Below are positions 4,215 to 54,708 of a stretch of DNA of 54,708 bases, one piece after another (within the stretch, counting starts at the first letter, position 1; each line of letters starts with the position of its first letter). The DNA comes from a virus. The notes below the pieces were generated by a model. That model had not been told where the DNA came from, ran no database searches, and saw only the letters and a list, made by a program, of their open reading frames with translations. Location: the IMG/VR virus record IMGVR_UViG_3300028178_000003, positions 1 to 54,708 of that record; one strand, 5' to 3'. The translations under genes were made by a program, and so were the position numbers.

Positions 4215-7200
4215 TTATACCCCAGCTGGAGGTCTTTGCTTTTCGTACTTATCGGGTTTTTGGCTACGTTTAAGACTTGATACTAACCATTTTGACGTAA
4301 TATACGGAACTTGATATTTTGGGTCAGCACCTGAAACGTCATTATTATACTCCGTAATCCGTCTATATAAGTCTGCAAAATCTGTATTATTTGTATTATT
4401 TATATTAACTAGCGCATGATTAAAACCTTCTAGTATGCCTGCGCGCTCTTTCTGATACTCAAGACGTACTTGATTCTCGCGCCATTGTTTTTGCCGTACA
4501 CCAGATATACTCCCTGGGTTAAAAGCTAAGACCCGTAATGCAAAATCTGTAGGCGAACCTTTTAATTTATCTGAACCATAAAAAATAGGTTTATAGACTT
4601 TGTCTGTAACACCTTCATCCCATTCACGGTAACCTTTAACTATAGATCCAACAGCTGTTGGTAAAAGTTTCTCAAGACCTTTTTCCCACTGGCCGTCCAT
4701 AAAGGAGTCAATAGAACTCATGATATCTAAGAATACTCCACCAGGCGCACCCATAGCTCCCAACCAGCCCTTAGATAAGTCAGGCATCGGGTTTGTAATT
4801 TCTAAAGACCCTTTAAGGTTTATGCCAATGAGTCCTGCAAAACCGTGTCGTGCAAATGCATCTGACCCAAAAGCTTCTTCAGCCCAGGTATAAAAAGCTT
4901 CTTCAGGGTCATCACCTCCGCCCATAGCCTTAATTGCCGCGGCCACGATTGGCATGACCAGGGAGGCTCCAGCACCTGCGAGGATTGCTGGTGACATGAG
5001 CATGTACGGTACCGACGTCCCCCATTTATTATACTTTATGCCGAGTTCCAGCATATTCAGCATATAATTCTGCTGGAATTTAAAGAAGGTATATGGCATG
5101 TCGAGGAGACGTACCTTCTGCACGATCCAAGGTTTAGCGCCTTTACCATATTCACCATGTGCTCTATTAGAGGTATGATATGCTTTCTGCAGGGCCTCTT
5201 CCATTGTAAGACTTTTGTTCATCTTCATATGCGCTTTTGTCGCCGCAAAGATCGTAGTAGCACGATTTGCTTTCTCAACAGCGCCAAACATAAACATCGC
5301 GCTAGCCATTGTGTTATTCCAGGTCTCATTCGCAGTAGTCTGCAATACCCGCACAGTGTCCTGGTTAAATTGTGCTTCGTCCCACCCGCGCTCTGTAATG
5401 TATGTGAATATGTCATAATCTTGCTTTGCTAAAGGGAGCTTTCCTAAATGTTCCTTAAAGCCTTTAGAAATGACATTTGAACCTTCCAGTATAGACGCGC
5501 GATACTTGGCGTACTTGGCAGCCGCTGAGGTAATCTCGCCCCAGGATTTCGTGATTGACATACCTGTGTGCGCAGCAATTGTAGCTGGTGCCGCGAACGC
5601 CATGTTTGTAGCGTTAACTGCAACTGAACTTACACGGAAACCAAGGTACTTAAGAACTGTTAAACCTTTGAGATAACCCACAGCTCGTTCTACCGCGTTA
5701 TCAGGTCGTAGAACATGGTTCATATACAATCGTGTATCATCATACAAGTTCTTTTGGTTCACTGCACTTATTGCTTTGCGCTTTACTTCAGCGCGGTAGT
5801 CTTTATACTTTGTGCCTGGGTTAGATTTCTGGAAATCTGCGAAAGATACGTCACGTCCGGTAAAAGCCTCAAGCATCCCTCTGGCCACTGTTCTACGTGC
5901 AACACCAGCCGCGATCTTCTGCGCATAAGCCGTAAGTGCTTTAAGCGGGTCAGTCTCGTACCCTTCCCAGTGCGACTCAGAACGTTTGAGGCGCGAACTA
6001 AAACTACCTTTTGCTTTATAGATGTTACCAATGTTGTAATTTATTTTTGCGTAAATGGCCTCAAGTAACTTCTGTTCAGCTTCAGACATATCTTTGCGGT
6101 CTACATTCTCAAGGGCCGCGGAAACGAGTGAATCCGTCGCTGTAAGAAGACCAGGGGTGTCGTAGATCGTTTCAGTTGCCGCCTTGACAGGGTTAATGGA
6201 AATCTCGCTTTCCTTAAAACCTTGCGCCATAAGCTTCTTGACTTCTGCAGCCACCGGTAACTTCTGGTTAATAAAGCCTTTGATACCTGCTTTTAATGCA
6301 GAATCCAATTCATTCGCCGGAAGATATAAGTCGATAGGAATAAGTACTTTCTTTCCAAGGGCGTTCTCCTTTTGCGCGGTCAATACATAATTTTTCTGCG
6401 GGCGTTCACGTGGAAAATATGTACCGCGTAAATCACCGACAATAGCAATTGCCTCAGACAGTTTAACAGCTACGTCTTTACCACCGACGGTGTGTACCGC
6501 GGTTGTTTCTGTTATACCGTTATCTCGCGCAAGTTTTATCTGCCTGCGCATATCGTCTACAATTACGTCAAAACCGCGATTTGTAAGATCGCGGCACTCT
6601 TTAACCATTGCCATAGCTTTCTCAGAGAAACCACGAGCTTTAAGACTTTTCTGTTCCTCTGCAGTCATGGCTGTAACTGCGTCAGATTCTTTAGCGTAAT
6701 CAAGAATACTTTTACCGATAGGGCTCATTACATGCCAGCGGTCTTTTACAAGCCGGACTGAATACCCGATACCTGTCTTATCAGCGTCTAATAAGTAATT
6801 CATACCTGCTTTATATGATCGCGGATCAGTTTTCTTCATGCCCTCTAAAAGCGGTATAAAAGTATTACCGACGACCATGCCTTCTGTAACATGCTTGATC
6901 TCACCTTGTTTCTGCGCCCATTCGAGCACTTTCTCAGCAGAACTATCACGGCGCATATAATACTCTGGAAGACTAAACATGCGGGTAAAGATGTTTGTGG
7001 TCTGTGTATCTATAGTACGCGTATATCCTTTAATACCTTTTTTTGGTTTACCAAAGTTCAAGCGCTCTTGCTCAGCCTGTACTGTATTCATAATTTGGCT
7101 GGTCAGTTGTGCAAGTTGTTTAGTCTGAATATTTTTTGCACGCTGTGCAATGGTATCTGCTGCAGCAAGTTTATCCAGATGTGCTGCATACTCAGCCTCT

Positions 7201-10200
7201 TCACGTGTTTCAGGACGCCGGCCCATCGTATCAACAAGATCAGGCATTATTTCAGGTCGGTGTACCCAGACATCAGCCGTTTTGTAGTTGACAGCCTCTG
7301 GGATATTGAGCCCTTCAGTCGGTTGACCTCGGCCAGAGAGGAGCTCGAAGCCTAACTTCTCGGCCATCTTATTCATTTCAGGTGATACTACGGCGAGGTA
7401 GATAGGCCTATCATAGGCGTCCATTACTTCTCGCATCATCGATTCGCCAATACCTTGGCGTCGATCATTCGGGTCAACAAACATGCTGTGGATCACAACG
7501 CCGAGCTTTACTTCCTCGAAGTCAAGATCACTACTCTCTCTGGTTATTTTGTAACTCTTACCTTTCTCTGTGCTTAGACCGTGTGGCTCGGTTTCCGCAA
7601 AGTCAGCTATTGGGATTTCACCGCGTTCAGCCATATCTTTGAGTTTATCGCCAATTACAAACTGGTGATAAGTATTCGCAAAATCTGCAGACCCAGTTTC
7701 TTCGATATCCTCAAGAGCTTTTTCTGCTTCAGCTTCTGTTTTAAAAATATGCGCAATCGTACTATCTGGGTCTATGTTTGCATCGTCAAATTCAAAGTCA
7801 TCAGCACTATTTCCATCGTTCTCCCAAGCGTCACGTGCATTAGTCTCTGCTCTATTCCATGCTGTATCTGATGTATACTCAATAATATATCCACCTTTTA
7901 CTTCTGATATAAAAGGCATATTAAAACCATAATTCAACGCCGGAGACATACCTGGTATTTCTACAGAACCAAGAGTTCCACCGTATGGTACAATGTTCTT
8001 CTTCGTAGCATTAGTAAGTACTTCAGTAAGTTGTCTAACACTACCGCCTACTTTATACGTACTGCCGCCAATTATCCATTTTCCATCGGAGTAATGTAGT
8101 TTAGCTCCCCAGTTTTCAATTTTTGCTACTTGTATAGGACTCATGGGCCAAACTACAGTATTAATACCACGTTTTACCGCTTCTTTTACAACTTCTTTAA
8201 AGATCGTGGGGACATAGTTATCCTTAAACGGAAGTTCTGGAATCACAGTAAGATACGGTCTTGACAACGTACGTTTTGCCAAATACCGGTTATGTATTGC
8301 AGTATTATAACTTACTGCCGAAGGTCTCATTTTTTCCATCATACCACGTACTTTTTCTATATCAATACCTGGAATAATTTCCTGCAGTTTTCGTATAGGC
8401 TCAGTAGCTGTAGTTGTTGGTTTTTTAAACTTCATACTGTTAAGGTAAGAGTCTATGTAAGCTCTAATTCGTGCATTTGCTTTTCCTTTTTGCTTTCCGT
8501 GGTTATCTGCAATATACTGCTTAATTTCTGTGCGTACGTTATTACGTGCGGATTCATAAGCACTAATTGGCTCTGCAAACTCTGGTCTTGACCATATCTC
8601 CGCTTTCTTTGAAGTATATTCAGCTTGGTACTTACGAAAATCAGCTATCGCTTCTAATGAGGTATATCCATGTTTTTTACCCTGATTATGCAGGTCTGAT
8701 TGTACCTCGTTTATAAATACTTCACCTGTAGGTAATACCGCACAGCGCGCCCATGCAATTTGATTTTTTGTTTTACTGAAATGCACGGCCCTATAGTCTG
8801 AATCCCCGATACCTTTAGGTAAACTCAACTCTACGTTAAATGTTTCTTGAGCTTGATGTGCTGGAATGATACTATACTGTGACCAAGGCACCGCAGCTCT
8901 TTCAGCGCCGGTAAAGGTCGCATTTACGTATTCTCGTATAGCTCGCGCAGAATGTATGAAGTTTGTATACATACTTCCGCCGAACCGAATTGCTTTTGAT
9001 AATTTGGCACTTGAATCAAGTTCCTTAATAAAACGGCTAATGCCAGGCAATGTAGTTCCTGTAAAAGTTTCTTTAAGCTGCCTAATATACTTACTGCTGT
9101 CGTAGTCCTCAATTATGGGTATATTACCATGGAGCGTATCACGCAGAACATCTCGTTCTTGCAAGTCAAGGTATTTCAATTTATCAATAGTATCAAACAA
9201 AGCCATGAATGCAGGGTTTATACTTTCAGCGTCTTCATTCAGCCATTGCGAGAACGTAGAGTCCTGATAAGTTTTAAGGACTGCAGCGGCTTTATTAGCA
9301 GCTTTATTAGCGTTTGTATCATGCGGTATTGAACCAGCAGTAGCTGCGGCTATTAAGCGTTGCCGTGAACCTGCTTCATCATCCGCGCTATATGCCCAAG
9401 GCGCAGTTGATTTACCTTCTACATTTTTAAACTCTACTTTGCTTGACGTTACTTTTACGTCTAAATCATTCTTCAGACTGTTCTCATTCAAGAAGTCAAG
9501 CACTTCAGTCTGGGTTACATTGTCACCTTGCTTTTGTACAAGCCATTCACGAAGCCCTGACCAAAATACCTCTTCTCTTATCGCGGCAGGCATAGAGCCC
9601 TTAAGCCATCCGTCAACTGACTTAATCCAGTTTTCAGCCATAGGAAACTTATTCTGTGGGCCCTTCTTCATAACATATTCAGTTTCAAGACGCGAGCTGG
9701 CGCTGATCCTGTCAGTATACGCGTGAATGCTTTCTACTTTGTGAATCAGGGGCTTTTCGACGGCTTTACGAAGATCCGCCATAAGCATATCTGCGACGTC
9801 TTTAGCTTCAAACCGGAGGGTCTTCATTGAAACGCCAAAGTTCCTGAATAAGAAGGCAGATACGGCTTTCCAGATCCTTGTCCAGAGAGAGTACTTAGCC
9901 TGACGTTCTTGATGCGTGAGACCATCCTGCGAAACCAGTTGCAAATACTTCATCATCACTTCTTCTTTATACATGCCCCGGCGTTCTAAATCGGACAGTC
10001 CTTGCGCTTCCCATACTTTAGCATGGCCTAGTCTTACTTCTTTGTAGATCCTGTCCAGTAAGGTTTTATCCATCTCGGAGAGACTCTTCTCATCAGTCAG
10101 AAGATCGTAGATATTTTCCCATTGCTTACGCCATACGGTATCAGCCCGCAGGAGCATATGCCCACCTTCATGCGTAAGGATACCGCGTATCGCGTCAATC

Positions 10201-13200
10201 GGGTCTGTAATCCGGTCAGCCACAAGGTGTATTTGTTTTTTGTAGTACGCGCCACGTATAGGCTGGTTACCTAACCGGCGTCGCATAACTGGCGTAAGAT
10301 CACTGTTTGATGCGTGTATCACAAGCCATTTGGGTATTTTACGAGTACCTAGGGCCTTCATTACCCCTCTGGCTACTTCGCCAGGTGTAAGGCCTGTAGT
10401 CCCAGCTTCAGCTCGGTCGGCCAATGGAATCTCACCGCGTTCGGCCATGCCTTTAAGGTTGTCACCGATCGTGAACTGATTATACGTATGCGGCAGCGTT
10501 TCCATATTGGCGCTAAGGGCTTCAGCTTCCGTTTTAAAGAGATGCGGATACTGATCTCCTACCTGGTCACGCAGCATATAGCCTTTGTCAACTTTATTGC
10601 CATCTTTATCAGTACCGACAACTTTCTCAGCTCTCCAGACGAAGTCCTTATCCGTGTTATACCGGGTACCGAGGTCTTTTTGCGTAGTCCCCAGAGTCCC
10701 ACCATACGGTACAATGCTTTTTTGTACAACGTTAGTAAGGTTCTGAGTAAGCTGGTTAACGCTTCCGCCTACATGCTGACTCCAAGCTACCCACTTACCT
10801 TCTACGTTGCGTAGTGTGCCCCACTGTTCAATTCTAGCCACTTGTGCAGGGCTCGCGGGCCATACGATCTTTGTAATACCGCGTTTTGTAGCTTCCTTAA
10901 CTACTTCTTTAAACATCACTGCGACGTAGTTATCTTTAAACGGGAATGCTGGTGGATGTTTTTCTATGGCCGAATTTACAGCGTTATACGTCTGCGCTTT
11001 TTCTTCTAACGGCTTTAAACGTGTCATGATCTCGTCTATTTGGTTAGGCGTATAAAAATGTGCGAGTTGTCTACGCAGGTCTCTTTTAACTTGGTCAACG
11101 TTCTTTGAATACATAACGCCGCCTTTGAAGTTAGCAATAGCTTGGTCAAGGGCTTTAGCTGGATCTTTTAATGTCTCAGGACCTGTACCGTCGTATATTT
11201 CAGACAGATGATCTAGAGCTTTAGCCATTTCAACACTTAACTCATTATAAGCTTTAGTAACTTCAGCCAGCAGCCCTTGTTTAGCATAACCACCAGATCT
11301 ATGAGCCGCGTTATGTAAATCAGATTGAATTTCATTGATAAAGAGTTCACCAGTTGGTAATACAACACAGCGGGCCCAAGCTACTTGATTTTTGGTATCC
11401 CAATGACCTGTTGTATATACCTTCAGGTCTTTACCGTGCTTAGGTATACTTAACTCAATGTTAAACATCTCTTTCGCATTGTTCATTGGGACAACAGAAT
11501 AGCCGCTGTACTCAAAGTCGTTTACCTCGTCCTGATAATCTCGGGCATACTCATCTCGGTCATACCCACCTGACCAAAACTCGGCTGCGTACTCTATCCT
11601 CTTTAGTTCTAGCAATTGTTGCTGTATACGTTCTAACTCAGACCGTTGAGCGTCAGCTGAAAAGTATTCACGGAATCGCGCATATGTCCCAGTAGTTCCT
11701 CCAGCGAGGTTATCTAAAAAAAGGTCAATGGAGCTTCTTTCAAAGTTCCGCATAAGTCTATCGCGTGTTGTAAGATCAACATTTGGTGCTTCGCCTATAA
11801 TTAATAAAGCTCGTTTGCGGAGTTCCTCTTGAGCGTTGGTATCCCCGCCCATAAGAGTGGCAATAGATTCATCGGGGTATTCACGCAACGCTTCTGCTAC
11901 CTTCTTAGCTGCATTGCCTTTTTCAGTATCTGGTATTTCACCAGCGTCGTATGCGGCTAATAATTTGACTTCTAAATCCGGCGTACCACCATCAAACATC
12001 CAACTCTCATACGGTATTACAGAGTCGGACTCTTGGCCTTCTTTTTTATTAGACGTAACTTTGACGTCAAGCTGACTCTTGAGGCCATGTTCACTTAGGT
12101 AATCGAGGATTTCGTCTTGTGTTACGTTTTCACTGGGTTTACCTTCAAGCCATTCACGTAAGTCTGACCAGAAGAGTTCTTCTTTAACAGCAGAAGGCAT
12201 AGAGCCTTTAAGCCACCCGTCGATAGACCGAATCCAGTTCTCAGATGTTGGGAGCTTGTTCTGCGGGCCCTTCTTCATAATGTACTCGGTCTCAAAGCGC
12301 GAGGTGGCCTCAATCAAGTCTGGTACAACTACATCAGCGTATGTGGACTCGATATCATCGATTTCGTCATCGTCAAGAGGCGTATCAGACAACGGGCCAG
12401 AGAGTTCCCATACACTCGTAGCCGATTCCCAGCGATCTTTGCTATCTTCAATAAGACCGCGTTTCTCTAATGCTCTGAGCGTAGATGACGGCACTTTAGG
12501 TACTGCGGTGCCAATATTCTCGCCATTTGCGATACGGATTAAGACAGCCCTCTGTTTATCGTTAATACCGTCTATGAGGTTTATTGCCTTAGTAAAGTGC
12601 ACAGCCCGCGGTGATAAAGGCGCTACAGGAGGCGTCTCTTTCTTCTTGTTCTTCCGCTCGCCTGGGATCTTCTCTTCATTGCCCTTAAGAGCCTCTCTGG
12701 CCGCTTTGGCTTCAGCCTCAACTTCTTCGTCCTTGGCCTTTGCAATTTTGTCTACCAAGTAATGTTTGGCTTTGTCTTTTAACTCACGGACGATCTGCGA
12801 GTTAGTTCGTGCTTTCAGTTCACCTTTGGTGTCTTTTACTGTCAGGGGCACGTCAAAGACTTTCGCAAGACGGCGTAACTTGGTAGCGTCTTCCTCGAGC
12901 ATAGACAAGGTGGTTACTTCCGCAATTGCCTTACTCGTTGTTTCGTCTACAGCTTTTTCCTCGGCTAGTTGGGCTTTGGCTTTTTCAACTTTGGCGTTGG
13001 GTTTTACTTCTTTTTTGGGCTTGATGGCTTCAATCTTAGTGTTACCATTTGCAAGCCATTCTTTAAACGCGGACATAGGCATTTCAACAATAGATCCAGC
13101 ACCTTTCCAGCCTTTCTCGTAATTGGAATTGTATGCTGTTCTTGCATCATTTCCCGAGTTAAAACCAAGCATTACTTTGTGCTCGTCAAACTTCTTTGTT

Positions 13201-16061
13201 TCTGGGTCATTTTGATTTACTACAAACACCTTCTCAGAAGCCAGGTTAGTGCCAATAAAAGTGTCAATGTGGTCCTTATCCTTACCAACGGTACCCTTTA
13301 TATATCCGTAATGATGTTTAACGGTGGTAGACCATTCTTTGCCGCTTTTAGACACGCCTTTACGCTCTGAGCCAACAGGATTTTCAATTGAGATATCAAG
13401 ACCTTGAAGGTTAATATGCCCCTTTTTATAGTTACCCGCTTCCTTCTGCGCTGGTGTAGGTTCTGGTATTTTATTCAACGGTGATGTAGCTGCCTCGTGT
13501 GCTGCGGCATCAATTGTGGCTTGCGCTGCACGCAGTTTCGTGATGAGAGACTTATGGTTTACCGTACCGTCGGCATTAAGGGGTAATTCTATTTTACGGT
13601 CTTTGGCAAGTTGTTCTAACTCTTCCTTAGACGCCCACCCAAGGCCTGTTTTGGGTTTTGCTGCTGCTACTGCTTTTGCCTCTTCCTGAGCTATAAACTC
13701 TTCAGCTTCATCCGGCGTAAGACTATGCGCTTCAGGAACAGGCTCTGCGGCTTTAAGTTCCTTAGCTGCGGCCTCAAGGTCATCAGCAGTAGTATTTTCA
13801 GCTGCGTCGTACTTGTCTAATGATTTAGTATCGGTGGTAATTTCAGGTTCCGCGTGTAAAGCGTTAATCTCCATTTGTGCGGCGATCTTTTCGCGTAGTT
13901 CCTTAGCCCGGAAGTAAAAGGGTTTGTCATCCTTGGTATAGCCTTTAATAGGCTCAACACCGATACTTTTCGCGAAAGCCTGAATCTCAGCCGGTTTTGA
14001 CTTATCATCAATAAGTTTATACGCCTTTACATTCAACTCATGCTGTGCCTGAGTAATACCTTCTTTCGGCTGAATGTTATTTGTACTCTCAGGTGCAAGT
14101 GCTTTAGCTGCATGATCCAGGAAAGTCGGCATACTGAAGTCTTGCTGAGTACGATGCGTATTTGCATACGCATAAGCAGCATTACCATACTTTTTTGCGA
14201 AGGTTTTAGCGTCCCCACCGGTGCGTAAAGTTTCAACGTCAGACAAGATATCTGCAGCGGTCATACCACCTTCAACGTTTATCTTACCGGTCTCAGGTTT
14301 CTCAGTGTCGTCAAGCGTTACAGTCCGTGAAAGAGAATCTTTGATCGCTTGAGCCGCGTCACGGCGTTTTGTGGCTTCTGTTAACTGAGTCTGAACCTCA
14401 ACGAGCTGAGTTGCTATAGCTTCGCGGCGTTCAGCGTTTATTGGCCGACCAGCGTCATCCTGTATATCAATTTGTTCAAGTTCACGTTCAAGGGGATTTA
14501 TTTTAGCAGAAATAACCTGTACTTCTTTATTCCACTGGGTAACGTCTTTAACAGCGCCGACTTCCCGCACAATCACAGGACGAATCGCATCGAGCACGTC
14601 AGAGTCTACACGTTTCTCGATCGTGGACAATGCACCTTTCTTCATCGCCTCTGTAGGCATCGTGTCAATTTCAATTTTTTCAGTACCAAGGGCTTTCTCA
14701 TAAAATTTTCGTGCTTTCATAATATACGGTATGTCGGCATCAGTAAGACCAACTGCAGACAGAGCTTCAGGCGTAGGTGCTTTATCTTCTTTGGCCAGAG
14801 AGAGTATGGTCAAGGCTTTCGCCTCATTGGACGCGTCCTCTCTGGCCACGTTCTTCTGGTAATATGAGTCGTCGTCAAATAGGATAGGTTTACCTACACT
14901 ATGTAACTTCACGGCCTGTTCGGTAAAGAGTTTTGCGAGTTCTGGGTCGGCTTCATTAATACCATGTGCAGTCTCAGCAATAGCTCTGTGTACTGCTTTG
15001 GTCGGTGCGTCTGGGTTAAGTAGGGTCTTACGTACATCAGATGCATGCTTAACACCATATGGGATACCAAAGGCATTGAAGACTAAAGTCATCATAAGTG
15101 CTGACTTTGCGGCATCAACCATATCAGTAGTTGTGTCTTGGGTAGGATTAAGACCTACTGACTTATCTGACCATGCTTGAATAGCAGTATTTGCAGCCTC
15201 GCCTCCAGACTCTACAAGACCAGTCACAAAGAAATCTTTTGCAATTTCGCCAAGAGACTTACCTGCGACCACTGACTTAATAATGCCACCAAGGCCCTCC
15301 TTGACAGCATTCTTAACTGGTGTACCGAGACCTTTAAAGACAAGTCCACTGATAGCATCTTGCGCCCACTCAGTGACCACCTCAGCTGCACCCGATATGT
15401 TGGCTTGACGGATGTTGTCTTCCTTACTGAGTCCTGCTGCTTCACCTTCGCGTAACTTTTGTTCTGTAGTCGCACCATAGAAGAGAGGTATCATTGCAGC
15501 AGTGCCCGCCGCAACACCAGCGAGGGGATTACCACCCGTTGCTATAGACGCTACTGCACCTACTGCGAAGGGCGCTAAGGACATTGGCGTAGACTCACCA
15601 GAACTACTTGCTGCACGTTGCCATGACCCAGGTACATCTGCTGCCTTAGAAGACTCCCATCCAGGCATCTTCTTCTTCATGTCCGTGCCAAAAGCCTCAA
15701 TACCTTTACCTACTGTACTGAGTATAGTAGGCGCTTCGCCCTCAGCAGTAATTGCTCGGTCCGCGAGTTGAAGACTCTGTCCAGCGGCCTCAGGAAGACC
15801 CTGCATAACACCGCGTCCAACACCACGACCAAATTCACGAATGAGGCCTATAGGTTTATCTTTTGTGGCCTGTACTTCTCTTTGGTAATTATCTTCTTCG
15901 ACTTGATTTGGGACTACTGCAGTTTTGAGCCAGTCTTCGTAGGGAGTATTAGCAAATTGAGAACTCGCATGAACTTCTCTCGCAACTTTGTCAAGGGGGG
16001 TATCAGGACCGTAATAGCCCTTGTTTTCGTCAAATTCTTTTCTAATATCAAGTAAGCCCAT
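4215..16061 (-). CDS. Giant polyvalent virion protein, probably ejected (3948 aa)
   Basis: Giant frames of this type belong to the phage large polyvalent proteins thought to be packaged in the capsid and delivered with the DNA. Approximate layout: hydrophobic Gly/Ala segment near 160-195; coiled and charged Ala/Lys/Glu region 500-1200 containing an inorganic-pyrophosphatase-like module near 875-1005 (KGHINLQGLDISIENP, then HHYGYIKG and DKDHIDTFIG); module copy 1 near 1255-1880; a zinc metallopeptidase-like HEGGH at 1964-1968; module copy 2 near 2123-2820; an acetyltransferase (GNAT)-like stretch near 2830-2900 with RRQGIGESMM; and a long helical C-terminus, resembling polyvalent domain LPD38, near 3560-3720 with a hydrophobic segment. 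The two module copies share KGPQNK, GWLKGSMP, AWARC-VLPTGE and KDNYV. The ATG is preceded by AAAGGAT and a 128-base leader carrying the 41-bp element. Domain names are from motif recognition, not a search. Confidence 0.8.
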   Translation of the reverse strand: MGLLDIRKEFDENKGYYGPDTPLDKVAREVHASSQFANTPYEDWLKTAVVPNQVEEDNYQREVQATKDKPIGLIREFGRGVGRGVMQGLPEAAGQSLQLADRAITAEGEAPTILSTVGKGIEAFGTDMKKKMPGWESSKAADVPGSWQRAASSSGESTPMSLAPFAVGAVASIATGGNPLAGVAAGTAAMIPLFYGATTEQKLREGEAAGLSKEDNIRQANISGAAEVVTEWAQDAISGLVFKGLGTPVKNAVKEGLGGIIKSVVAGKSLGEIAKDFFVTGLVESGGEAANTAIQAWSDKSVGLNPTQDTTTDMVDAAKSALMMTLVFNAFGIPYGVKHASDVRKTLLNPDAPTKAVHRAIAETAHGINEADPELAKLFTEQAVKLHSVGKPILFDDDSYYQKNVAREDASNEAKALTILSLAKEDKAPTPEALSAVGLTDADIPYIMKARKFYEKALGTEKIEIDTMPTEAMKKGALSTIEKRVDSDVLDAIRPVIVREVGAVKDVTQWNKEVQVISAKINPLERELEQIDIQDDAGRPINAERREAIATQLVEVQTQLTEATKRRDAAQAIKDSLSRTVTLDDTEKPETGKINVEGGMTAADILSDVETLRTGGDAKTFAKKYGNAAYAYANTHRTQQDFSMPTFLDHAAKALAPESTNNIQPKEGITQAQHELNVKAYKLIDDKSKPAEIQAFAKSIGVEPIKGYTKDDKPFYFRAKELREKIAAQMEINALHAEPEITTDTKSLDKYDAAENTTADDLEAAAKELKAAEPVPEAHSLTPDEAEEFIAQEEAKAVAAAKPKTGLGWASKEELEQLAKDRKIELPLNADGTVNHKSLITKLRAAQATIDAAAHEAATSPLNKIPEPTPAQKEAGNYKKGHINLQGLDISIENPVGSERKGVSKSGKEWSTTVKHHYGYIKGTVGKDKDHIDTFIGTNLASEKVFVVNQNDPETKKFDEHKVMLGFNSGNDARTAYNSNYEKGWKGAGSIVEMPMSAFKEWLANGNTKIEAIKPKKEVKPNAKVEKAKAQLAEEKAVDETTSKAIAEVTTLSMLEEDATKLRRLAKVFDVPLTVKDTKGELKARTNSQIVRELKDKAKHYLVDKIAKAKDEEVEAEAKAAREALKGNEEKIPGERKNKKKETPPVAPLSPRAVHFTKAINLIDGINDKQRAVLIRIANGENIGTAVPKVPSSTLRALEKRGLIEDSKDRWESATSVWELSGPLSDTPLDDDEIDDIESTYADVVVPDLIEATSRFETEYIMKKGPQNKLPTSENWIRSIDGWLKGSMPSAVKEELFWSDLREWLEGKPSENVTQDEILDYLSEHGLKSQLDVKVTSNKKEGQESDSVIPYESWMFDGGTPDLEVKLLAAYDAGEIPDTEKGNAAKKVAEALREYPDESIATLMGGDTNAQEELRKRALLIIGEAPNVDLTTRDRLMRNFERSSIDLFLDNLAGGTTGTYARFREYFSADAQRSELERIQQQLLELKRIEYAAEFWSGGYDRDEYARDYQDEVNDFEYSGYSVVPMNNAKEMFNIELSIPKHGKDLKVYTTGHWDTKNQVAWARCVVLPTGELFINEIQSDLHNAAHRSGGYAKQGLLAEVTKAYNELSVEMAKALDHLSEIYDGTGPETLKDPAKALDQAIANFKGGVMYSKNVDQVKRDLRRQLAHFYTPNQIDEIMTRLKPLEEKAQTYNAVNSAIEKHPPAFPFKDNYVAVMFKEVVKEATKRGITKIVWPASPAQVARIEQWGTLRNVEGKWVAWSQHVGGSVNQLTQNLTNVVQKSIVPYGGTLGTTQKDLGTRYNTDKDFVWRAEKVVGTDKDGNKVDKGYMLRDQVGDQYPHLFKTEAEALSANMETLPHTYNQFTIGDNLKGMAERGEIPLADRAEAGTTGLTPGEVARGVMKALGTRKIPKWLVIHASNSDLTPVMRRRLGNQPIRGAYYKKQIHLVADRITDPIDAIRGILTHEGGHMLLRADTVWRKQWENIYDLLTDEKSLSEMDKTLLDRIYKEVRLGHAKVWEAQGLSDLERRGMYKEEVMMKYLQLVSQDGLTHQERQAKYSLWTRIWKAVSAFLFRNFGVSMKTLRFEAKDVADMLMADLRKAVEKPLIHKVESIHAYTDRISASSRLETEYVMKKGPQNKFPMAENWIKSVDGWLKGSMPAAIREEVFWSGLREWLVQKQGDNVTQTEVLDFLNENSLKNDLDVKVTSSKVEFKNVEGKSTAPWAYSADDEAGSRQRLIAAATAGSIPHDTNANKAANKAAAVLKTYQDSTFSQWLNEDAESINPAFMALFDTIDKLKYLDLQERDVLRDTLHGNIPIIEDYDSSKYIRQLKETFTGTTLPGISRFIKELDSSAKLSKAIRFGGSMYTNFIHSARAIREYVNATFTGAERAAVPWSQYSIIPAHQAQETFNVELSLPKGIGDSDYRAVHFSKTKNQIAWARCAVLPTGEVFINEVQSDLHNQGKKHGYTSLEAIADFRKYQAEYTSKKAEIWSRPEFAEPISAYESARNNVRTEIKQYIADNHGKQKGKANARIRAYIDSYLNSMKFKKPTTTATEPIRKLQEIIPGIDIEKVRGMMEKMRPSAVSYNTAIHNRYLAKRTLSRPYLTVIPELPFKDNYVPTIFKEVVKEAVKRGINTVVWPMSPIQVAKIENWGAKLHYSDGKWIIGGSTYKVGGSVRQLTEVLTNATKKNIVPYGGTLGSVEIPGMSPALNYGFNMPFISEVKGGYIIEYTSDTAWNRAETNARDAWENDGNSADDFEFDDANIDPDSTIAHIFKTEAEAEKALEDIEETGSADFANTYHQFVIGDKLKDMAERGEIPIADFAETEPHGLSTEKGKSYKITRESSDLDFEEVKLGVVIHSMFVDPNDRRQGIGESMMREVMDAYDRPIYLAVVSPEMNKMAEKLGFELLSGRGQPTEGLNIPEAVNYKTADVWVHRPEIMPDLVDTMGRRPETREEAEYAAHLDKLAAADTIAQRAKNIQTKQLAQLTSQIMNTVQAEQERLNFGKPKKGIKGYTRTIDTQTTNIFTRMFSLPEYYMRRDSSAEKVLEWAQKQGEIKHVTEGMVVGNTFIPLLEGMKKTDPRSYKAGMNYLLDADKTGIGYSVRLVKDRWHVMSPIGKSILDYAKESDAVTAMTAEEQKSLKARGFSEKAMAMVKECRDLTNRGFDVIVDDMRRQIKLARDNGITETTAVHTVGGKDVAVKLSEAIAIVGDLRGTYFPRERPQKNYVLTAQKENALGKKVLIPIDLYLPANELDSALKAGIKGFINQKLPVAAEVKKLMAQGFKESEISINPVKAATETIYDTPGLLTATDSLVSAALENVDRKDMSEAEQKLLEAIYAKINYNIGNIYKAKGSFSSRLKRSESHWEGYETDPLKALTAYAQKIAAGVARRTVARGMLEAFTGRDVSFADFQKSNPGTKYKDYRAEVKRKAISAVNQKNLYDDTRLYMNHVLRPDNAVERAVGYLKGLTVLKYLGFRVSSVAVNATNMAFAAPATIAAHTGMSITKSWGEITSAAAKYAKYRASILEGSNVISKGFKEHLGKLPLAKQDYDIFTYITERGWDEAQFNQDTVRVLQTTANETWNNTMASAMFMFGAVEKANRATTIFAATKAHMKMNKSLTMEEALQKAYHTSNRAHGEYGKGAKPWIVQKVRLLDMPYTFFKFQQNYMLNMLELGIKYNKWGTSVPYMLMSPAILAGAGASLVMPIVAAAIKAMGGGDDPEEAFYTWAEEAFGSDAFARHGFAGLIGINLKGSLEITNPMPDLSKGWLGAMGAPGGVFLDIMSSIDSFMDGQWEKGLEKLLPTAVGSIVKGYREWDEGVTDKVYKPIFYGSDKLKGSPTDFALRVLAFNPGSISGVRQKQWRENQVRLEYQKERAGILEGFNHALVNINNTNNTDFADLYRRITEYNNDVSGADPKYQVPYITSKWLVSSLKRSQKPDKYEKQRPPAGV

Positions 16062-48476: not shown

Positions 48477-48826
48477 CAGTCCAACAAATGTTTGAAGCCA
48501 TATCAAAGTACCAATACCATGTTCATCACGTTGACTATGCTACACTGTCCATGAAGCAGCGTATGCAACTTATGCGGGACTACGTTTTAGCAATGCAAGT
48601 GGAACAAGTAGAACTGCTGCAAGAGTTGCCGTGGAAACCATGGAAATACGCCGAAGACCACAGTTGTTTGATTGACATGCAAAAACTTATAGAGGAATGG
48701 GTTGACTGTCTGTTCTTTTTGATTGACCAAGCCCTTGTCCTCAAAATATCAGCCGAAGATGTCACAGAAACTTTTCAAGCAGTACTAACTAAAAATTATG
48801 CACGCAAAAAGGAAAACGCAATATGA
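48461..48826 (+). CDS. Dimeric dUTPase/MazG-like pyrophosphatase (121 aa)
   Basis: An all-alpha protein with the acidic metal-binding pattern of the dUTPase-2/MazG family: QVEQVELLQELPWKPWK (acidic pair and WK) near 45-62, then EEWVDCLFFLIDQAL near 86-100. It would convert dUTP to dUMP, giving substrate to ThyX next to it. The start overlaps the ThyX end by 16 bases, so it is coupled. Length is somewhat short for the family but complete. A general NTP-pyrophosphatase is an alternative. Confidence 0.7.
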   Translation: MGTSLTVQQMFEAISKYQYHVHHVDYATLSMKQRMQLMRDYVLAMQVEQVELLQELPWKPWKYAEDHSCLIDMQKLIEEWVDCLFFLIDQALVLKISAEDVTETFQAVLTKNYARKKENAI

Positions 48827-49398
48827 TTACGCCAATTATGAGATTGTCATTTCCGGCCTTGTTTGAACCAAAGGCCAATCCTTCCGGCAAAATGAAGTAC
48901 GGGTGTTCTTTGCTTATCAGCAAGGACGACGTAGCCGGTGTTAAACAGTTACAAGACGCTATCCAGAAGGCTATGCAAAAAGGTAAGGAAACTCTCTGGT
49001 CAAACAAGATTCCTGCCTTCCGGTATCAGCCCCTTCGTGACGGCGACGCAGAGCTCGCAAGCGGTGAAAAGACGGATCCCGTCTATAAGAACACGTTCTT
49101 CCTCAACGCCTCCGCAGATACCGCCCCTGGCATTGTTATGGCCACGGGGTCTGGCCCCAAGCCTATCCTTGATGTATCCGCAATCTTTGCGGGCTGCTGG
49201 GTTCGTGCCGACATCAACGCATTTCCGTATAAGAATAGCGGCAATTGCGGTGTTGGTTGGGGCCTCAACAATGTTCTACTCGTCAAAGAAGGTGAGCGTC
49301 TTGATGGTCGCATGCGGGCAACCGATGCCTTTGCCAACTACGATGTCGTAGAAGAAGACGGCGCGACTGGTGATCCTGCAGGCGACGACATTATGTAA
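48823..49398 (+). CDS. DUF2815 ssDNA-binding protein (191 aa)
   Basis: The sequence fits the DUF2815 family: MRLSFPALFEPKANPSGKMK at the N-terminus, YGCSLLISKDD, then FFLNASADTAPGIV and GCWVRADINAFPYKN, ending with an acidic tail (EEDGATGDPAGDDIM). DUF2815 proteins are considered T7 gp2.5-like single-stranded DNA-binding proteins; the acidic C-terminus is typical of such proteins and used to contact the polymerase or primase. Starts by overlap with the dUTPase-like gene. A strong terminator follows. Its partner DUF2800 is encoded at 43215. Confidence 0.8.
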   Translation: MITPIMRLSFPALFEPKANPSGKMKYGCSLLISKDDVAGVKQLQDAIQKAMQKGKETLWSNKIPAFRYQPLRDGDAELASGEKTDPVYKNTFFLNASADTAPGIVMATGSGPKPILDVSAIFAGCWVRADINAFPYKNSGNCGVGWGLNNVLLVKEGERLDGRMRATDAFANYDVVEEDGATGDPAGDDIM

Positions 49399-49915: not shown

Positions 49916-50187
49916 CGCCAGAGCAAATGAGGAACATCGCAGATCGTGCTGAAGTTCAACGCATTGTAGAACGGTACCGAGGTAAGTTCGGTCGTACTCT
50001 TACTGTGCATATCAGCCGCACGATCAATATGGGCAATTACAACAGTCTCAAGGTCGAGGCTGGACTATCACAGGAGATTGCCCATGATGCAAACCAAGAT
50101 GCCGTATACAAGCAGATGTGGAATGACTGCAACAAAGAAGTCAATCGTGCAATTGCGGCATTTGACAAGTCAAAGGCACCCAAATGA
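49912..50187 (+). CDS. Small early protein (91 aa)
   Basis: A helical basic protein (EQMRNIADRAEVQRIVERYR) with no recognised family, overlapping both neighbours at start and stop by four bases. GAGGAGG lies upstream of the ATG. It sits directly before the DNA polymerase gene. Function unknown. Confidence 0.55.
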   Translation: MTPEQMRNIADRAEVQRIVERYRGKFGRTLTVHISRTINMGNYNSLKVEAGLSQEIAHDANQDAVYKQMWNDCNKEVNRAIAAFDKSKAPK

Positions 50188-53048
50188 CAGAACTCTTATT
50201 CATTGACTTTGAAACCTACTCCGCTGTAGATATCAAAGTGGCAGGAGGCATGGCCTATGCATCAGATGACTCAACTCAGATCATCTGTTTGGCGTGGGCC
50301 TTTAACCAAGAAGAACCTACTCTTTGGACAGTCGCGTCAGGACGTTTACCAGAGAGAGTCATCAAACATGTAACCGAGGGTGGTAAGGTCTGTGCCTTCA
50401 ATGCAACGTTTGATTGGCGTATATGGAACAAGGTAGGTGTGCGTGACTTTAACTGGCCGGCAATACCGTTACTTCAAGTTGCAGATGCGCAGGCTCTGTG
50501 CGCCTGCTATCAGTTACCCCAGAATCTTGCAGATGCAGGAGCGGCACTCGAGATTCCAATGCCAAAAGACGCAGCGGGCAAAGCATATGTCAAGGCGTGC
50601 TGTATACCAAACAAGCACGGTGAACAACCGTTTCCTACTAGCACAAACACGACATCGTTTCAGGGCCTATTCCGTTACTGCTTACGAGACGTTGTTGCAA
50701 TGCAGCAAATCGTCTACAAGCTGCCACGTCAGGAACTCATTCCACAAGAACAAGAGATCTGGGAATTCACAGTCGAGATGAACTGTATTGGCTTACCTGT
50801 AGATATAGACTCAGTCATCAGTATCTATGAGTACCTGCAGAAGTATATCGAAAAGACCGTCGTCGAGCTCCCGATTCTTACAAACGGTATCGTGACTACT
50901 CCTGGTCAAATTGCGCGTATTATTAAGTGGTGTGCGTCTAAGGGTTTTATTATACCAAACCTTCAAGCAGAAACCGTAGAGCTCGCAATCGCCAAGACAA
51001 ATACCCCGAAAGATGTACGGCGTATACTCGAATTACGGCAAGAACTGGGCCGATCCTCGACGGCTAAGTACAAGAAGATCGCGGAGCAAGCTGTTATATG
51101 GAGTGGCCAAGCCTGGGTACATGACAACTTACGGTATCATGGTGCGGGCACTGGCCGGCTTGCAGGCCAAGGTTTTCAGATGCATAATTTACCACGCCTC
51201 AGTATTGAAAAGATCTGTAAAGAACGTAAGCTTCAGCGGGCAAATATTGCAGGTGAGAGCATAATCGAGCCAATCGAGGATTATGAAGACCCCGAAACCT
51301 GGATCAACATGTTTAAAGTAAACATGGTCATAGATGATCCAGTACAAGTGGCTAAGGCTCTTATACGACCTATGATCTGTGCGCCTCCAGGATATACAAT
51401 CGCTGTTGCAGATTACTCGTCGATTGAAAATCGTATCTTGGCCTGGGCCGCAGATGACTGTCAAACCATGGAGGACTTCAACAATGGACTTGACCAATAT
51501 GTCACAATGGCTGCAGCGAGATTTGGAGTGCCTTATGACAAAGTTACGTCAGAGCAAAGACGCGTCGGAAAAGTTATTATCCTTGGCTGTATAGCGGAAC
51601 ATACGAAGGTCCTTACAGATCGTGGTCCTGTGCCTATTCAAAATATACAGCTTACCGACAAACTATGGGACGGTGAGAAGTGGGTATCTCATGATGGCGT
51701 ACTTAACAAGGGCCAAAGAGAATGTGACGCATTTTGCGGTACATGGCTCACGCCGGACCATGAGATATATTTTGGTGATACGAAGGAGGAAGTATGGCGC
51801 CACGCCGGCAGTACCCAATCAGAGGTCCAGGCCATATGTTTGGCTTTTGGCAAGTTCTTGACTATAAATCACGAGCAGATTCTCCAAAACGCGACGCAGG
51901 TTATGACGTCTTATGTACACTCTGCGGAAACATACATTTTCAAATTCTGGCAAACCTTGAAAAAGGCAACAGTACTAAATGCGGAATCTGCGGGCGAAAA
52001 ACTGTTTACAAATTTAATTTGGAAACACATAGTAAAGTTACAGGACTTGACGAAGCAATTGTTGAACGCCTTATCAATCGATGGTTCGCTGCAAAATCCA
52101 GATGTTATGACAAGAATAATTTTGCGTTTCATTGCTATGGCGCCCGAGGAATCAAGATGTGTAATGAATGGACAGACTCTCGAGCATTTATTATACATGC
52201 TTCTACCATACCAGGATTTGACAACCCAGACCTTGAGCTCGACAGAATCGACAATGATAAGGATTATGAACCCGGCAACATCAGGTTTTGTACGCGCTCG
52301 GAAAATATGTTTAACTCACGACATTCTAAACGCTGGAAATCTGAACAGATTCACACTACTGACAAGTAAAGGCCCTATTGTCGTAAGTAATTGTGGATAC
52401 GGAATGGGTGGAAAGAAGTTTAAAACCACCGCCGCGCTCCAAGCCGGCCTGGATTTATCAGACGAAGAAGCTAAAGCTTCAGTGGACGCCTACCGAGATC
52501 GATATCCTCTGGTTAAAACTCTCTGGGCGCATCTTCGAAACGCTGCTGCTGAAGCTGTCATCAGTGGAAGCAAACGCCGTTATAAAAACACTACGTTTGG
52601 TGTGTTCAGTAGAAACGGAATTAAATGGCTCGCACTGCAGTTACCGACAGGAAAATCATTATACTATATGAACCCGACGATCAAAGATGAGTTCATTCCT
52701 GACTACGAGTACATGGGTGCTGTGGCGACTATCACGCACTCCGGGATTAACCCTTATACAAAAAAGTGGTCCCGACTTAAACTCATTCCAGGCCGTATTA
52801 CTGAGAATCTTGTACAAGGTACGGCCAGAGAGGTTATGATGCGGGGTATGCTTAACGTAAAGAAGCATATGCCGCATGTAAAGATCATCGGCAGCGTACA
52901 TGATGAAGCTTTAGCGCTGATAAAGACTGAGGATGCCACACCTGACGCAATGGCTAAGTTTACGCATCACCTATGTGATGTTGATTTCCTCCCCGACTGT
53001 CCTATTAAAGCGGTTGGCTTTTTTACCAAACGTTATAAGAAAGGATAA
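50184..53048 (+). CDS. Family A DNA polymerase with intein in motif B (954 aa precursor)
   Basis: N-terminal 3'-5' exonuclease: LLFIDFETYS (Exo I, residues 4-13), AFNATFDWRIW (Exo II, about 70), FRYCLRDVVAM (Exo III, about 165). Polymerase motif A is VADYSSIENRIL (about 408-419). Motif B is split: GKVIILG ends at residue 468 and CGYGMGGKKF restarts at 737, so residues 469-736 are an intein. Motif C is SVHDEAL (about 904-910). Without the intein the enzyme has 686 residues, the normal size for phage PolA. The start overlaps the previous stop by four bases. The insertion is in the active site, so polymerase activity would depend on splicing. Confidence 0.88.
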   Translation: MTELLFIDFETYSAVDIKVAGGMAYASDDSTQIICLAWAFNQEEPTLWTVASGRLPERVIKHVTEGGKVCAFNATFDWRIWNKVGVRDFNWPAIPLLQVADAQALCACYQLPQNLADAGAALEIPMPKDAAGKAYVKACCIPNKHGEQPFPTSTNTTSFQGLFRYCLRDVVAMQQIVYKLPRQELIPQEQEIWEFTVEMNCIGLPVDIDSVISIYEYLQKYIEKTVVELPILTNGIVTTPGQIARIIKWCASKGFIIPNLQAETVELAIAKTNTPKDVRRILELRQELGRSSTAKYKKIAEQAVIWSGQAWVHDNLRYHGAGTGRLAGQGFQMHNLPRLSIEKICKERKLQRANIAGESIIEPIEDYEDPETWINMFKVNMVIDDPVQVAKALIRPMICAPPGYTIAVADYSSIENRILAWAADDCQTMEDFNNGLDQYVTMAAARFGVPYDKVTSEQRRVGKVIILGCIAEHTKVLTDRGPVPIQNIQLTDKLWDGEKWVSHDGVLNKGQRECDAFCGTWLTPDHEIYFGDTKEEVWRHAGSTQSEVQAICLAFGKFLTINHEQILQNATQVMTSYVHSAETYIFKFWQTLKKATVLNAESAGEKLFTNLIWKHIVKLQDLTKQLLNALSIDGSLQNPDVMTRIILRFIAMAPEESRCVMNGQTLEHLLYMLLPYQDLTTQTLSSTESTMIRIMNPATSGFVRARKICLTHDILNAGNLNRFTLLTSKGPIVVSNCGYGMGGKKFKTTAALQAGLDLSDEEAKASVDAYRDRYPLVKTLWAHLRNAAAEAVISGSKRRYKNTTFGVFSRNGIKWLALQLPTGKSLYYMNPTIKDEFIPDYEYMGAVATITHSGINPYTKKWSRLKLIPGRITENLVQGTAREVMMRGMLNVKKHMPHVKIIGSVHDEALALIKTEDATPDAMAKFTHHLCDVDFLPDCPIKAVGFFTKRYKKG
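51588..52391 (+). other. Intein (268 aa) in polymerase motif B
   Basis: The intein begins with Cys1 (residue 469, TGT 51588) and ends with Asn (residue 736), followed by Cys+1. Block A: CIAEHTKVLTDRGPVPIQNI, then LWDGEKWVSHDGV and a later LTPDHEIYF (block B, Thr-x-x-His). Near the end are HDILNAGNLNRFTLL (block F) and GPIVVSN before Cys+1 (block G). These match the mini-inteins of phage PolA genes. Between B and F (about 155 codons) the in-frame sequence has no known intein or endonuclease motif; instead another frame encodes an HNH enzyme. Splicing would join GKVIILG to CGYGMG. Confidence 0.85.
51794..52369 (+). CDS. HNH endonuclease nested out of frame in the intein (191 aa)
   Basis: This frame (shifted by one from the polymerase) encodes a phage-type HNH protein. 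Residues about 15-67 are a zinc module of the usual kind: MFGFWQVLDYK, then CTLC (41-44) and CGIC (63-66). Then INRWFAAKSRCYDKNN, YGARGIKMCNEW, and ELDRIDNDKDYEPGNIRFCT with RSENMFNSR, the classic HNH core with final Asn. ATG 51794 is preceded by AAGGAGG (4-base gap), an independent ribosome site. Its stop TAA lies within the block F to G region of the intein. It would be the homing enzyme that spreads the intein; normally such domains are fused in frame. It could also be an old independent gene inserted later. Confidence 0.85.
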   Translation: MAPRRQYPIRGPGHMFGFWQVLDYKSRADSPKRDAGYDVLCTLCGNIHFQILANLEKGNSTKCGICGRKTVYKFNLETHSKVTGLDEAIVERLINRWFAAKSRCYDKNNFAFHCYGARGIKMCNEWTDSRAFIIHASTIPGFDNPDLELDRIDNDKDYEPGNIRFCTRSENMFNSRHSKRWKSEQIHTTDK

Positions 53049-53549: not shown

Positions 53550-53879
53550 ATGCCTGAATCAGAAAAAGATACGGAACGGTATCTGTGCGATCAAGTACGG
53601 GCTCTTGGCGGTGAAGCATATAAGTTTGTAAGTCCTATGCGACGTTTTGTATTAGACCGTATGTGCGTACTGCCAAAAGGTAAAGTGTGGTTCGTAGAAG
53701 TCAAGAGCGAGGGCCAGATTCCATCAGAAGGTCAGTTCCGCGAAATTGAACGTCTTGTACTAAAAGGACATCATGCGACTTATGTGAGTTCTAAGGCCGG
53801 AGTAAACAAAGTAATTAATCAAATGCAGGAGGAACAAAATGCTAATCAAACAGGTGATCAAGAAGTTGCAGCAGACTAA
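53550..53879 (+). CDS. VRR-NUC nuclease (109 aa)
   Basis: The PD-(D/E)XK core is FVLDRMCVLPKGKVWFVEVK (Asp about 29, Glu/Lys in EVK about 44-46) with E5 in the N-terminal ESEKDTERYL. VRR-NUC stand-alone proteins are common phage nucleases resolving or trimming DNA structures. Length (about 100) is typical. It lies between polymerase and ligase, overlapping the ligase start, so it is part of the replication and repair module. Confidence 0.82.
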   Translation: MPESEKDTERYLCDQVRALGGEAYKFVSPMRRFVLDRMCVLPKGKVWFVEVKSEGQIPSEGQFREIERLVLKGHHATYVSSKAGVNKVINQMQEEQNANQTGDQEVAAD

Positions 53880-54708
53880 CAGTTTGAATGACAAGGTAAT
53901 GATTCTCCAACGATACGACTCTCCACGGTTACGCGAAATGTTATTAGCCGCGTATCATCCATACCAAAAGTATGGTCTTAAACAGGTTCCTTGGACCGGC
54001 GATGGTTTAGCTACACTTGAAGATAACTGGGTGCAATTGCAAACGCATTTAATGTTTATGGCTAATACTCATGGCGACGGTATAGTTAAACAACTTACTG
54101 CTCAATGTATAAACCAGTTATTAAAAGAAGACGCCGAGGTCTTTAAGTGTATCATTAAAAAGAACCTTGAGTGCGGTATTACCGCAACGACGATTAATAA
54201 AGCCTTTCCGGAACTCATACCTGTCTTTGGTATCATGAAGGCTGCAACCTTCGAAGACAAACTCTGGCGTTCTGGTTTACTTGGCAGCGTAAAACTTGAC
54301 GGGTACAGATGTCTCGTTCGCGATGGCCAACTATATTCGAGTGGCGGGCACTTGATACAAGGTGCAAAGCATATTGAGAATGCAATTGTCGGTCTTGGTG
54401 ACTTTGACGGTGAGATCATGGTTCCGAATATGGAGTTCAACGAAAGTGGCGGTCTGATCAGGAGTGCCAATGTAACACCTGACGCTAGACTTCTCTTATT
54501 TGACGCCATTGGCAACATGCATATGCCGTTTAAGGCGCGCTACAGGGCACTGGAAGAAATCGGCAAAGAGCAAGGATGGTCATTCTCTCTGGCCAAACCG
54601 ACAACTATCACGGTCATACGGCACAAAACCTTTGAGTCCCTCGAGGAGATGAAAGCCACGTACGAGAAGGCATTGTACGCCGGTTACGAAGGCCTTGTGC
54701 TTAAAGAC
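53839..54708 (+). CDS. ATP-dependent DNA ligase, cut by window end
   Basis: Start ATG 53839 (GGAGGAAC upstream) overlaps the VRR-NUC gene by 41 bases in another frame. The first 290 residues are seen. Motif I is GSVKLDGYRCL (about 149-159, Lys is the AMP site), followed by GDFDGEIMV (motif III-like) and YEGLVLKD at the window end (motif IV). The N-terminal 140 residues are a helical region as in phage ligases (KQVIKKLQQTNSLNDK). It seals nicks in replication and recombination. The rest lies outside the window. Confidence 0.85.
   Translation, partial: MLIKQVIKKLQQTNSLNDKVMILQRYDSPRLREMLLAAYHPYQKYGLKQVPWTGDGLATLEDNWVQLQTHLMFMANTHGDGIVKQLTAQCINQLLKEDAEVFKCIIKKNLECGITATTINKAFPELIPVFGIMKAATFEDKLWRSGLLGSVKLDGYRCLVRDGQLYSSGGHLIQGAKHIENAIVGLGDFDGEIMVPNMEFNESGGLIRSANVTPDARLLLFDAIGNMHMPFKARYRALEEIGKEQGWSFSLAKPTTITVIRHKTFESLEEMKATYEKALYAGYEGLVLKD

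Follow-up and report, generated by a model that had tools for sequence, protein, structure and literature searches.

The family-A DNA polymerase gene of the viral DNA analysed here, a stretch of 54,708 nucleotides (the window), very probably carries a mobile cis-splicing intein with a separately translated homing-endonuclease gene nested inside it, one stretch of DNA thus encoding two proteins. At the level of sequence, the window and its relatives display two open frames, a set of splicing blocks with a predicted intein fold, a start codon preceded by a Shine-Dalgarno (SD) motif, selection that differs by segment among relatives, empty sites and horizontal spread. Such a parasite, with two genes in one stretch, is widespread and mobile and has largely been overlooked.

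The polymerase gene (50184-53048; plus strand, as are the parts of the insert described below) is open throughout and encodes 954 amino acids including the intein, with profile matches to PF00476 (DNA_pol_A, E=6.5e-23) and phrog_17 (DNA polymerase, E=2e-82). Its N-extein occupies 50184-51587 and its C-extein 52392-53045, followed by the stop codon at 53046-53048. The insert (51588-52391) lies in polymerase motif B, between the codons for RRVGKVIILG and CGYGMG, and adds 268 in-frame codons, from Cys1 to Asn268, with the Cys+1 of the extein encoded from 52392. The first-pass annotation had reported a complete set of intein blocks in this frame, and all four were recovered within the coordinates it gave: block A (CIAEHTKVLTDRG, 51588-51626), block B (TPDHEIYFG, with the TPDH motif, 51750-51776), block F (DILNAGNLNRF, 52320-52352) and block G (GPIVVSN, 52371-52391). 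The blocks are kept across 27 aligned inteins, in which C1, T6 and V8 of block A, T55 and H58 of the block B TxxH motif, and D245 and N268 of blocks F and G are invariant. The penultimate residue of block G is Ser267 in the window and His in all aligned relatives. A penultimate His is not universal among inteins, as some splicing-competent ones lack it, and Ser267 is therefore not disqualifying.

The AlphaFold2 model of the intein has pLDDT values of 91-96 over residues 1-60, 64-78 over residues 61-90 and 90-95 from residue 241 onwards. Values fall below 50 throughout residues 94-234, the HNH-overlapped middle, which is predicted to be disordered. From these values we delimited an N-terminal splicing domain with blocks A and B (residues 1-93, 51588-51866); it is followed by a linker (residues 94-234, 51867-52289) whose DNA has the HNH frame as its selected message, and by a C-terminal splicing domain with blocks F and G (residues 235-268, 52290-52391), the 5' part of which overlaps the 3' end of the HNH gene. 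In Foldseek searches the leading matches of the model were all inteins or intein-like domains (best E=1.3e-3, probability 1.0), and a profile search matched the Mtu RecA intein (E=2e-4), while Pfam searches for HINT, and for HNH, returned little or nothing. The modelled fold is that of a HINT domain, and together with the conserved blocks it suggests that the intein would undergo protein splicing.

Nested in this intein, in the -1 frame (an offset of 2 nt from the polymerase frame), is an HNH-family endonuclease gene of 191 codons (51794-52369). An HNH gene in a shifted frame, with AAGGAGG and a stop of its own, had already been noticed in the first pass, and the profile search supports it: the ORF matches phrog_374 (HNH endonuclease) with E=5.9e-36. 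The SD sequence AAGGAGG (51783-51789) lies inside intein codons, with a 4-nt spacer to the ATG. Among 26 HNH members compared, all 26 match phrog_374, 3377 and 2081 and 12 match an endonuclease VII family, and none matches Pfam HNH, the endonuclease assignment of the family thus coming from PHROGs alone. The AlphaFold2 model of the HNH protein has a mean pLDDT of 86, and a PDB fold search with it gave no convincing match. The protein has four conserved Cys (CxxC...CxxC) and a strand-strand-helix motif at the C-terminus, and Asn residues are conserved in the family. The first His of the classical HNH motif is absent, Arg standing in its place (LDRID); D150-R151 is invariant in the whole family, so that D-R replaces D-H. 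Because of the PHROGs-only assignment, the lack of Pfam and PDB matches and the Arg in place of the first His, we treat HNH catalysis as putative.

A sequencing indel, a worry of the first-pass annotation, was ruled out as the origin of the shifted frame. An IMG/VR contig from another assembly (L004) aligns with the window across 5511 bp without a gap and with 2 mismatches, and the arrangement recurs at about 100 other loci. Chance was likewise ruled out as the origin of the second open frame, by codon shuffles at many loci and by comparison with non-nested relatives. Over the HNH domain the third frame has 20 stops and the polymerase frame 0. When the HNH codons of the window were shuffled synonymously, the polymerase frame stayed open in 36 of 2000 shuffles (1.8%); at 26 other loci it did so in 0-30% of shuffles each, and the real polymerase frame is open in all 26. 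Among 77 non-nested relatives, the -1 frame is open over the 110-codon core in seven.

We estimated pN/pS (NG86) per segment and frame in five clusters of relatives, values that are approximate in overlapping frames and come from pairs that are not independent; as the window lineage has a single near-identical relative, the test rests on more distant ones. Selection switches frame along the gene. In the polymerase frame, pN/pS is 0.15-0.52 in the exteins and 0-0.42 in the splicing blocks across the five clusters, and over these same segments the HNH frame is unconstrained (1.05 and above). Over the HNH domain the pattern is reversed: values reach 1.07-1.38 for the polymerase frame and are 0.08-0.34 for the HNH frame (five clusters). 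Constraint acts on both frames (0.23-0.66 and 0.34-0.62) in the C-terminal tail of the HNH protein, which lies over the C-terminal splicing region. An N-terminal extension, found in most relatives and absent from the window, is under constraint in the polymerase frame and under weak or no constraint in the HNH frame. In the cluster of Jersey-type sequences, differences by HNH codon position number 955, 471 and 2472. The splicing domain and a separate HNH-family gene thus share the same DNA in different frames, as had been claimed at the outset, and relatives show selection on both.

Regarding the start of HNH translation, the window contains 2 SD-ATG matches of this kind in its 54.7 kb, against 0.57 expected by chance. 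A strong SD is absent in many -1-frame relatives. In most -1-frame relatives the candidate start is an ATG that arises where the codon ahead of the conserved intein Trp ends in A (xxA TGG); for Glu, Gln or Lys codons at that position, A is the last base in 45 of 62 distinct contexts, compared with 40% in exteins (p=4e-7, kinship ignored). Several +1-frame members have AGGAGG-like SDs ahead of the start. Taken together, the SD-ATG of the window, the A-ending codons and the SDs of the +1-frame members make initiation inside the polymerase mRNA likely, and the HNH protein is presumably translated.

The insert is precisely absent from some homologues. The first-pass annotation had looked to polymerases with and without it, and both kinds exist: nested relatives are many, and two polymerases are empty. 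That of L118, with exteins 75-89% identical in amino acids to those of the window, reads RRVGKVIILG-CGFGMG with no insert, which is an exact empty site; that of Salmonella phage S106 matches the extein query from intein-bearing phage Ent1 at 98% identity and also has no insert. Conversely, similar inserts occur in dissimilar polymerases. L097 and L101 share 57% identity in the exteins, 97% in the intein blocks and 98% in the HNH, and L095 and L101 share 53%, 92% (intein) and 96%, respectively. Inteins 92-97% and HNHs 96-98% identical in polymerases only 53-57% identical therefore argue for mobility. Correlations between intein, HNH and extein distances (r of 0.77, 0.73 and 0.65) mean that lineages partly co-diverge with their host polymerases and that transfer between distant polymerases is not constant. 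At one locus (L199:3872-4591) the nested HNH has decayed, with an internal in-frame stop, and the intein frame is still open, as would be expected if the endonuclease is the first part to decay in a homing cycle.

These observations are consistent with the following cycle. Ribosomes in the polymerase frame would produce a polymerase precursor interrupted by a cis-splicing intein, whose HINT domain (residues 1-93 and 235-268) would excise itself and join the exteins at motif B. The middle, of about 140 residues, would be an unconstrained linker on which the main demand is that it contain no stop codons. Internal initiation at the SD-ATG at 51794, in the -1 frame, would yield a free HNH-family endonuclease. 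This protein would cut intein-less polymerase alleles at motif B, and repair from an intein-bearing copy would then copy in the whole unit (homing).

The nested arrangement was found well beyond the window. Using tblastn with the HNH, we recovered polymerase genes of Vibrio phage 97.13, Pseudomonas phage MR14 and Salmonella phage Ent1, with the HNH in the same offset-2 frame inside the intein. Scans of viral and genome contigs gave about 102 distinct -1-frame (offset-2) loci, which form 83 clusters at 90% and 25 at 60% HNH identity, and 16 nested loci in the +1 frame (offset 1). The latter lie in terminase-like and helicase-like genes and in polymerases near CENATQA (sites judged by eye from the flanks), and, in genome contigs of Bacillota and other bacteria, also at polymerase motif B. 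The +1-frame HNHs of L037, L094 and L107 are in inteins of terminase-like and helicase-like genes (again assigned by eye), and the arrangement is therefore not limited to polymerases. Three polymerases (L188, L217 and L235) have two inteins each, the motif-B one with a -1-frame HNH and the second with a +1-frame HNH. About 163 GenBank phage records, mostly of Salmonella Jerseyviruses, have an HNH that shares at least 80% identity with the Ent1 protein; among the matches listed, the annotation is DNA polymerase, intein-containing polymerase or hypothetical protein. Shigella phage EP23 also carries the nested arrangement, as does Sodalis phage SO-1 (L252, GQ502199), in which gp39 is annotated nested inside gp38 as a 'type I self-splicing intron'.

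That SO-1 annotation embodies the first rival reading, which takes the insert for a group I intron, or another RNA intron, containing an HNH ORF and places its removal at the RNA level. Phage HNH homing genes are indeed frequent in group I introns (e.g. PMC3428280), but no Rfam family reached the gathering score in the window, L001, L002, L003 or L252, and a group I intron was rejected as a candidate. The polymerase frame is open across the whole insert in about 100 loci, and the ends of the insert encode intein blocks that are under protein-level selection (pN/pS 0-0.42) and HINT-folded in the model. RNA-level removal thus has a negligible probability in our judgement, and the SO-1 gp38/gp39 insert is indicated to be an intein rather than an intron. 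Scarcely more credible is an insertion that does not splice and persists in the polymerase. The out-of-frame HNH logic is that of a published phage case (PMC11855218), and the penultimate Ser of the window intein also speaks for it; the splicing blocks, on the other hand, are complete and conserved, a HINT fold is predicted, and the insert breaks a catalytic motif of the polymerase, which would have to keep it.

The arrangement could also be a fused intein in degeneration, its once in-frame HNH shifted by a pair of indels, in a transitional or decaying state toward a split intein. Both inteins whose endonuclease is in frame and split inteins whose halves flank a free endonuclease gene are known, but we consider this origin improbable. 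The frame relation is kept in the 25 clusters at 60% identity, with the HNH frame under purifying selection, and a search among relatives for an in-frame-fused (offset-0) or split member of this HNH/intein family found none. In the window itself the HNH has an offset of 2, and the single open frame 50184-53048 has no stop between the halves. The existence of two registers (-1 and +1) is better explained by self-contained genes inserting into mini-inteins. The suggestion in the first-pass annotation of an intermediate between fused and split inteins thus finds no support, the arrangement being a stable one in many phage lineages. We lean instead towards an unrecognised, widespread class of dual-coding mobile inteins, in which HNH genes would have invaded mini-inteins at least twice, in two registers and sometimes both in one polymerase, and would persist as the dispensable middle of the intein tolerates any stop-free translation.

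Several known systems share features with the mobile intein and nested gene proposed here. Fused mobile inteins, with in-frame LAGLIDADG or HNH domains, likewise combine a cis-splicing intein and a homing endonuclease as one mobile unit in a conserved active-site motif; the endonuclease of the window differs in being a separate polypeptide in another frame, with its own start and stop. Split inteins (fractured genes) whose halves are separated by a free-standing endonuclease gene were reportedly described by Dassa et al. in 2009. In these, too, the splicing element and the endonuclease are separate proteins and the endonuclease gene is mid-intein, whereas in the window intein and polymerase form one unbroken ORF that overlaps the endonuclease gene, and splicing would be in cis. 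I-PfoP3I is encoded by an HNH ORF in a group I intron of a phage DNA polymerase (PMC3428280), also a homing gene in a self-removing insert of such a gene; removal in the window would be by protein and not by RNA, and no intron family was detected there. Salmonella phage vB_SenS-Ent1 gp37 (Jerseyvirus) has a nested -1-frame HNH in the same polymerase region and is annotated as 'intein encoding splicing domains', the splicing domains alone being annotated. It differs from the window in that the insertion point is a few residues away in motif B and that the N- and C-terminal extensions of the HNH are longer and overlap the splicing blocks.

The nearest published case is that of phage ShiLan, described in 2025, in which an out-of-frame HNH lies in a methylase insertion without splicing blocks (PMC11855218). 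As in the window, the HNH ORF is in an alternative frame, the host frame is left open, and the distribution is sporadic, suggesting homing. In the ShiLan insertion neither a splicing domain nor a ribosome-binding site was detected, and the insertion is believed to be retained in the protein; in the window, full intein blocks, which are under selection in relatives, flank the HNH in the host frame, the HNH gene has an SD, and the insert breaks up a catalytic motif of its polymerase host. ShiLan and the annotated SO-1 gp39 inside gp38 come near enough to qualify the earlier statement that no such case had been described. The literature surveyed contained no true intein with an out-of-frame nested HNH, but did not include an actinophage 'non-canonical' intein preprint from the same laboratory as the ShiLan study (10.1101/2025.01.02.630785); true inteins with out-of-frame endonucleases may thus have been described before.

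A protein that removes itself tolerates almost any stop-free linker, which leaves room in its shadow for a second gene with translation of its own. If our interpretation is right, endonuclease expression is uncoupled from polymerase synthesis, and splicing elements have a testable route to acquire, and maybe later release, homing genes. The more than 100 loci form a data set on the entry of homing genes into inteins and on shared selection in overlapping genes, and also bear on why host-frame surveys of inteins miss endonucleases. Since sequenced phages (Salmonella Jerseyviruses, Shigella phage EP23 and Sodalis phage SO-1) carry the nested arrangement, it is directly testable.

Some loci and neighbouring genes deserve mention. 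L170-L178, the genome contigs of Bacillota and other bacteria in which motif-B inteins hold +1-frame HNHs, in several cases with an AGGAGG-like SD, are probably prophages. A Taishania pollutisoli contig (L163) has a Jersey-type polymerase intein and HNH, and is probably phage contamination of the assembly. The Jersey-like polymerase of L015 has its frame broken upstream of the HNH, perhaps by a sequencing error or in a broken intein, and was left out of the evidence. In the window, a gp2.5-like ssDNA-binding protein is encoded upstream of the polymerase (48823-49398); downstream (53550-54708) are an endonuclease (phrog_93) and an ATP-dependent DNA ligase, the latter cut by the window end. An ORF of 3948 amino acids on the minus strand (4215-16061) is of unusual length for a phage.
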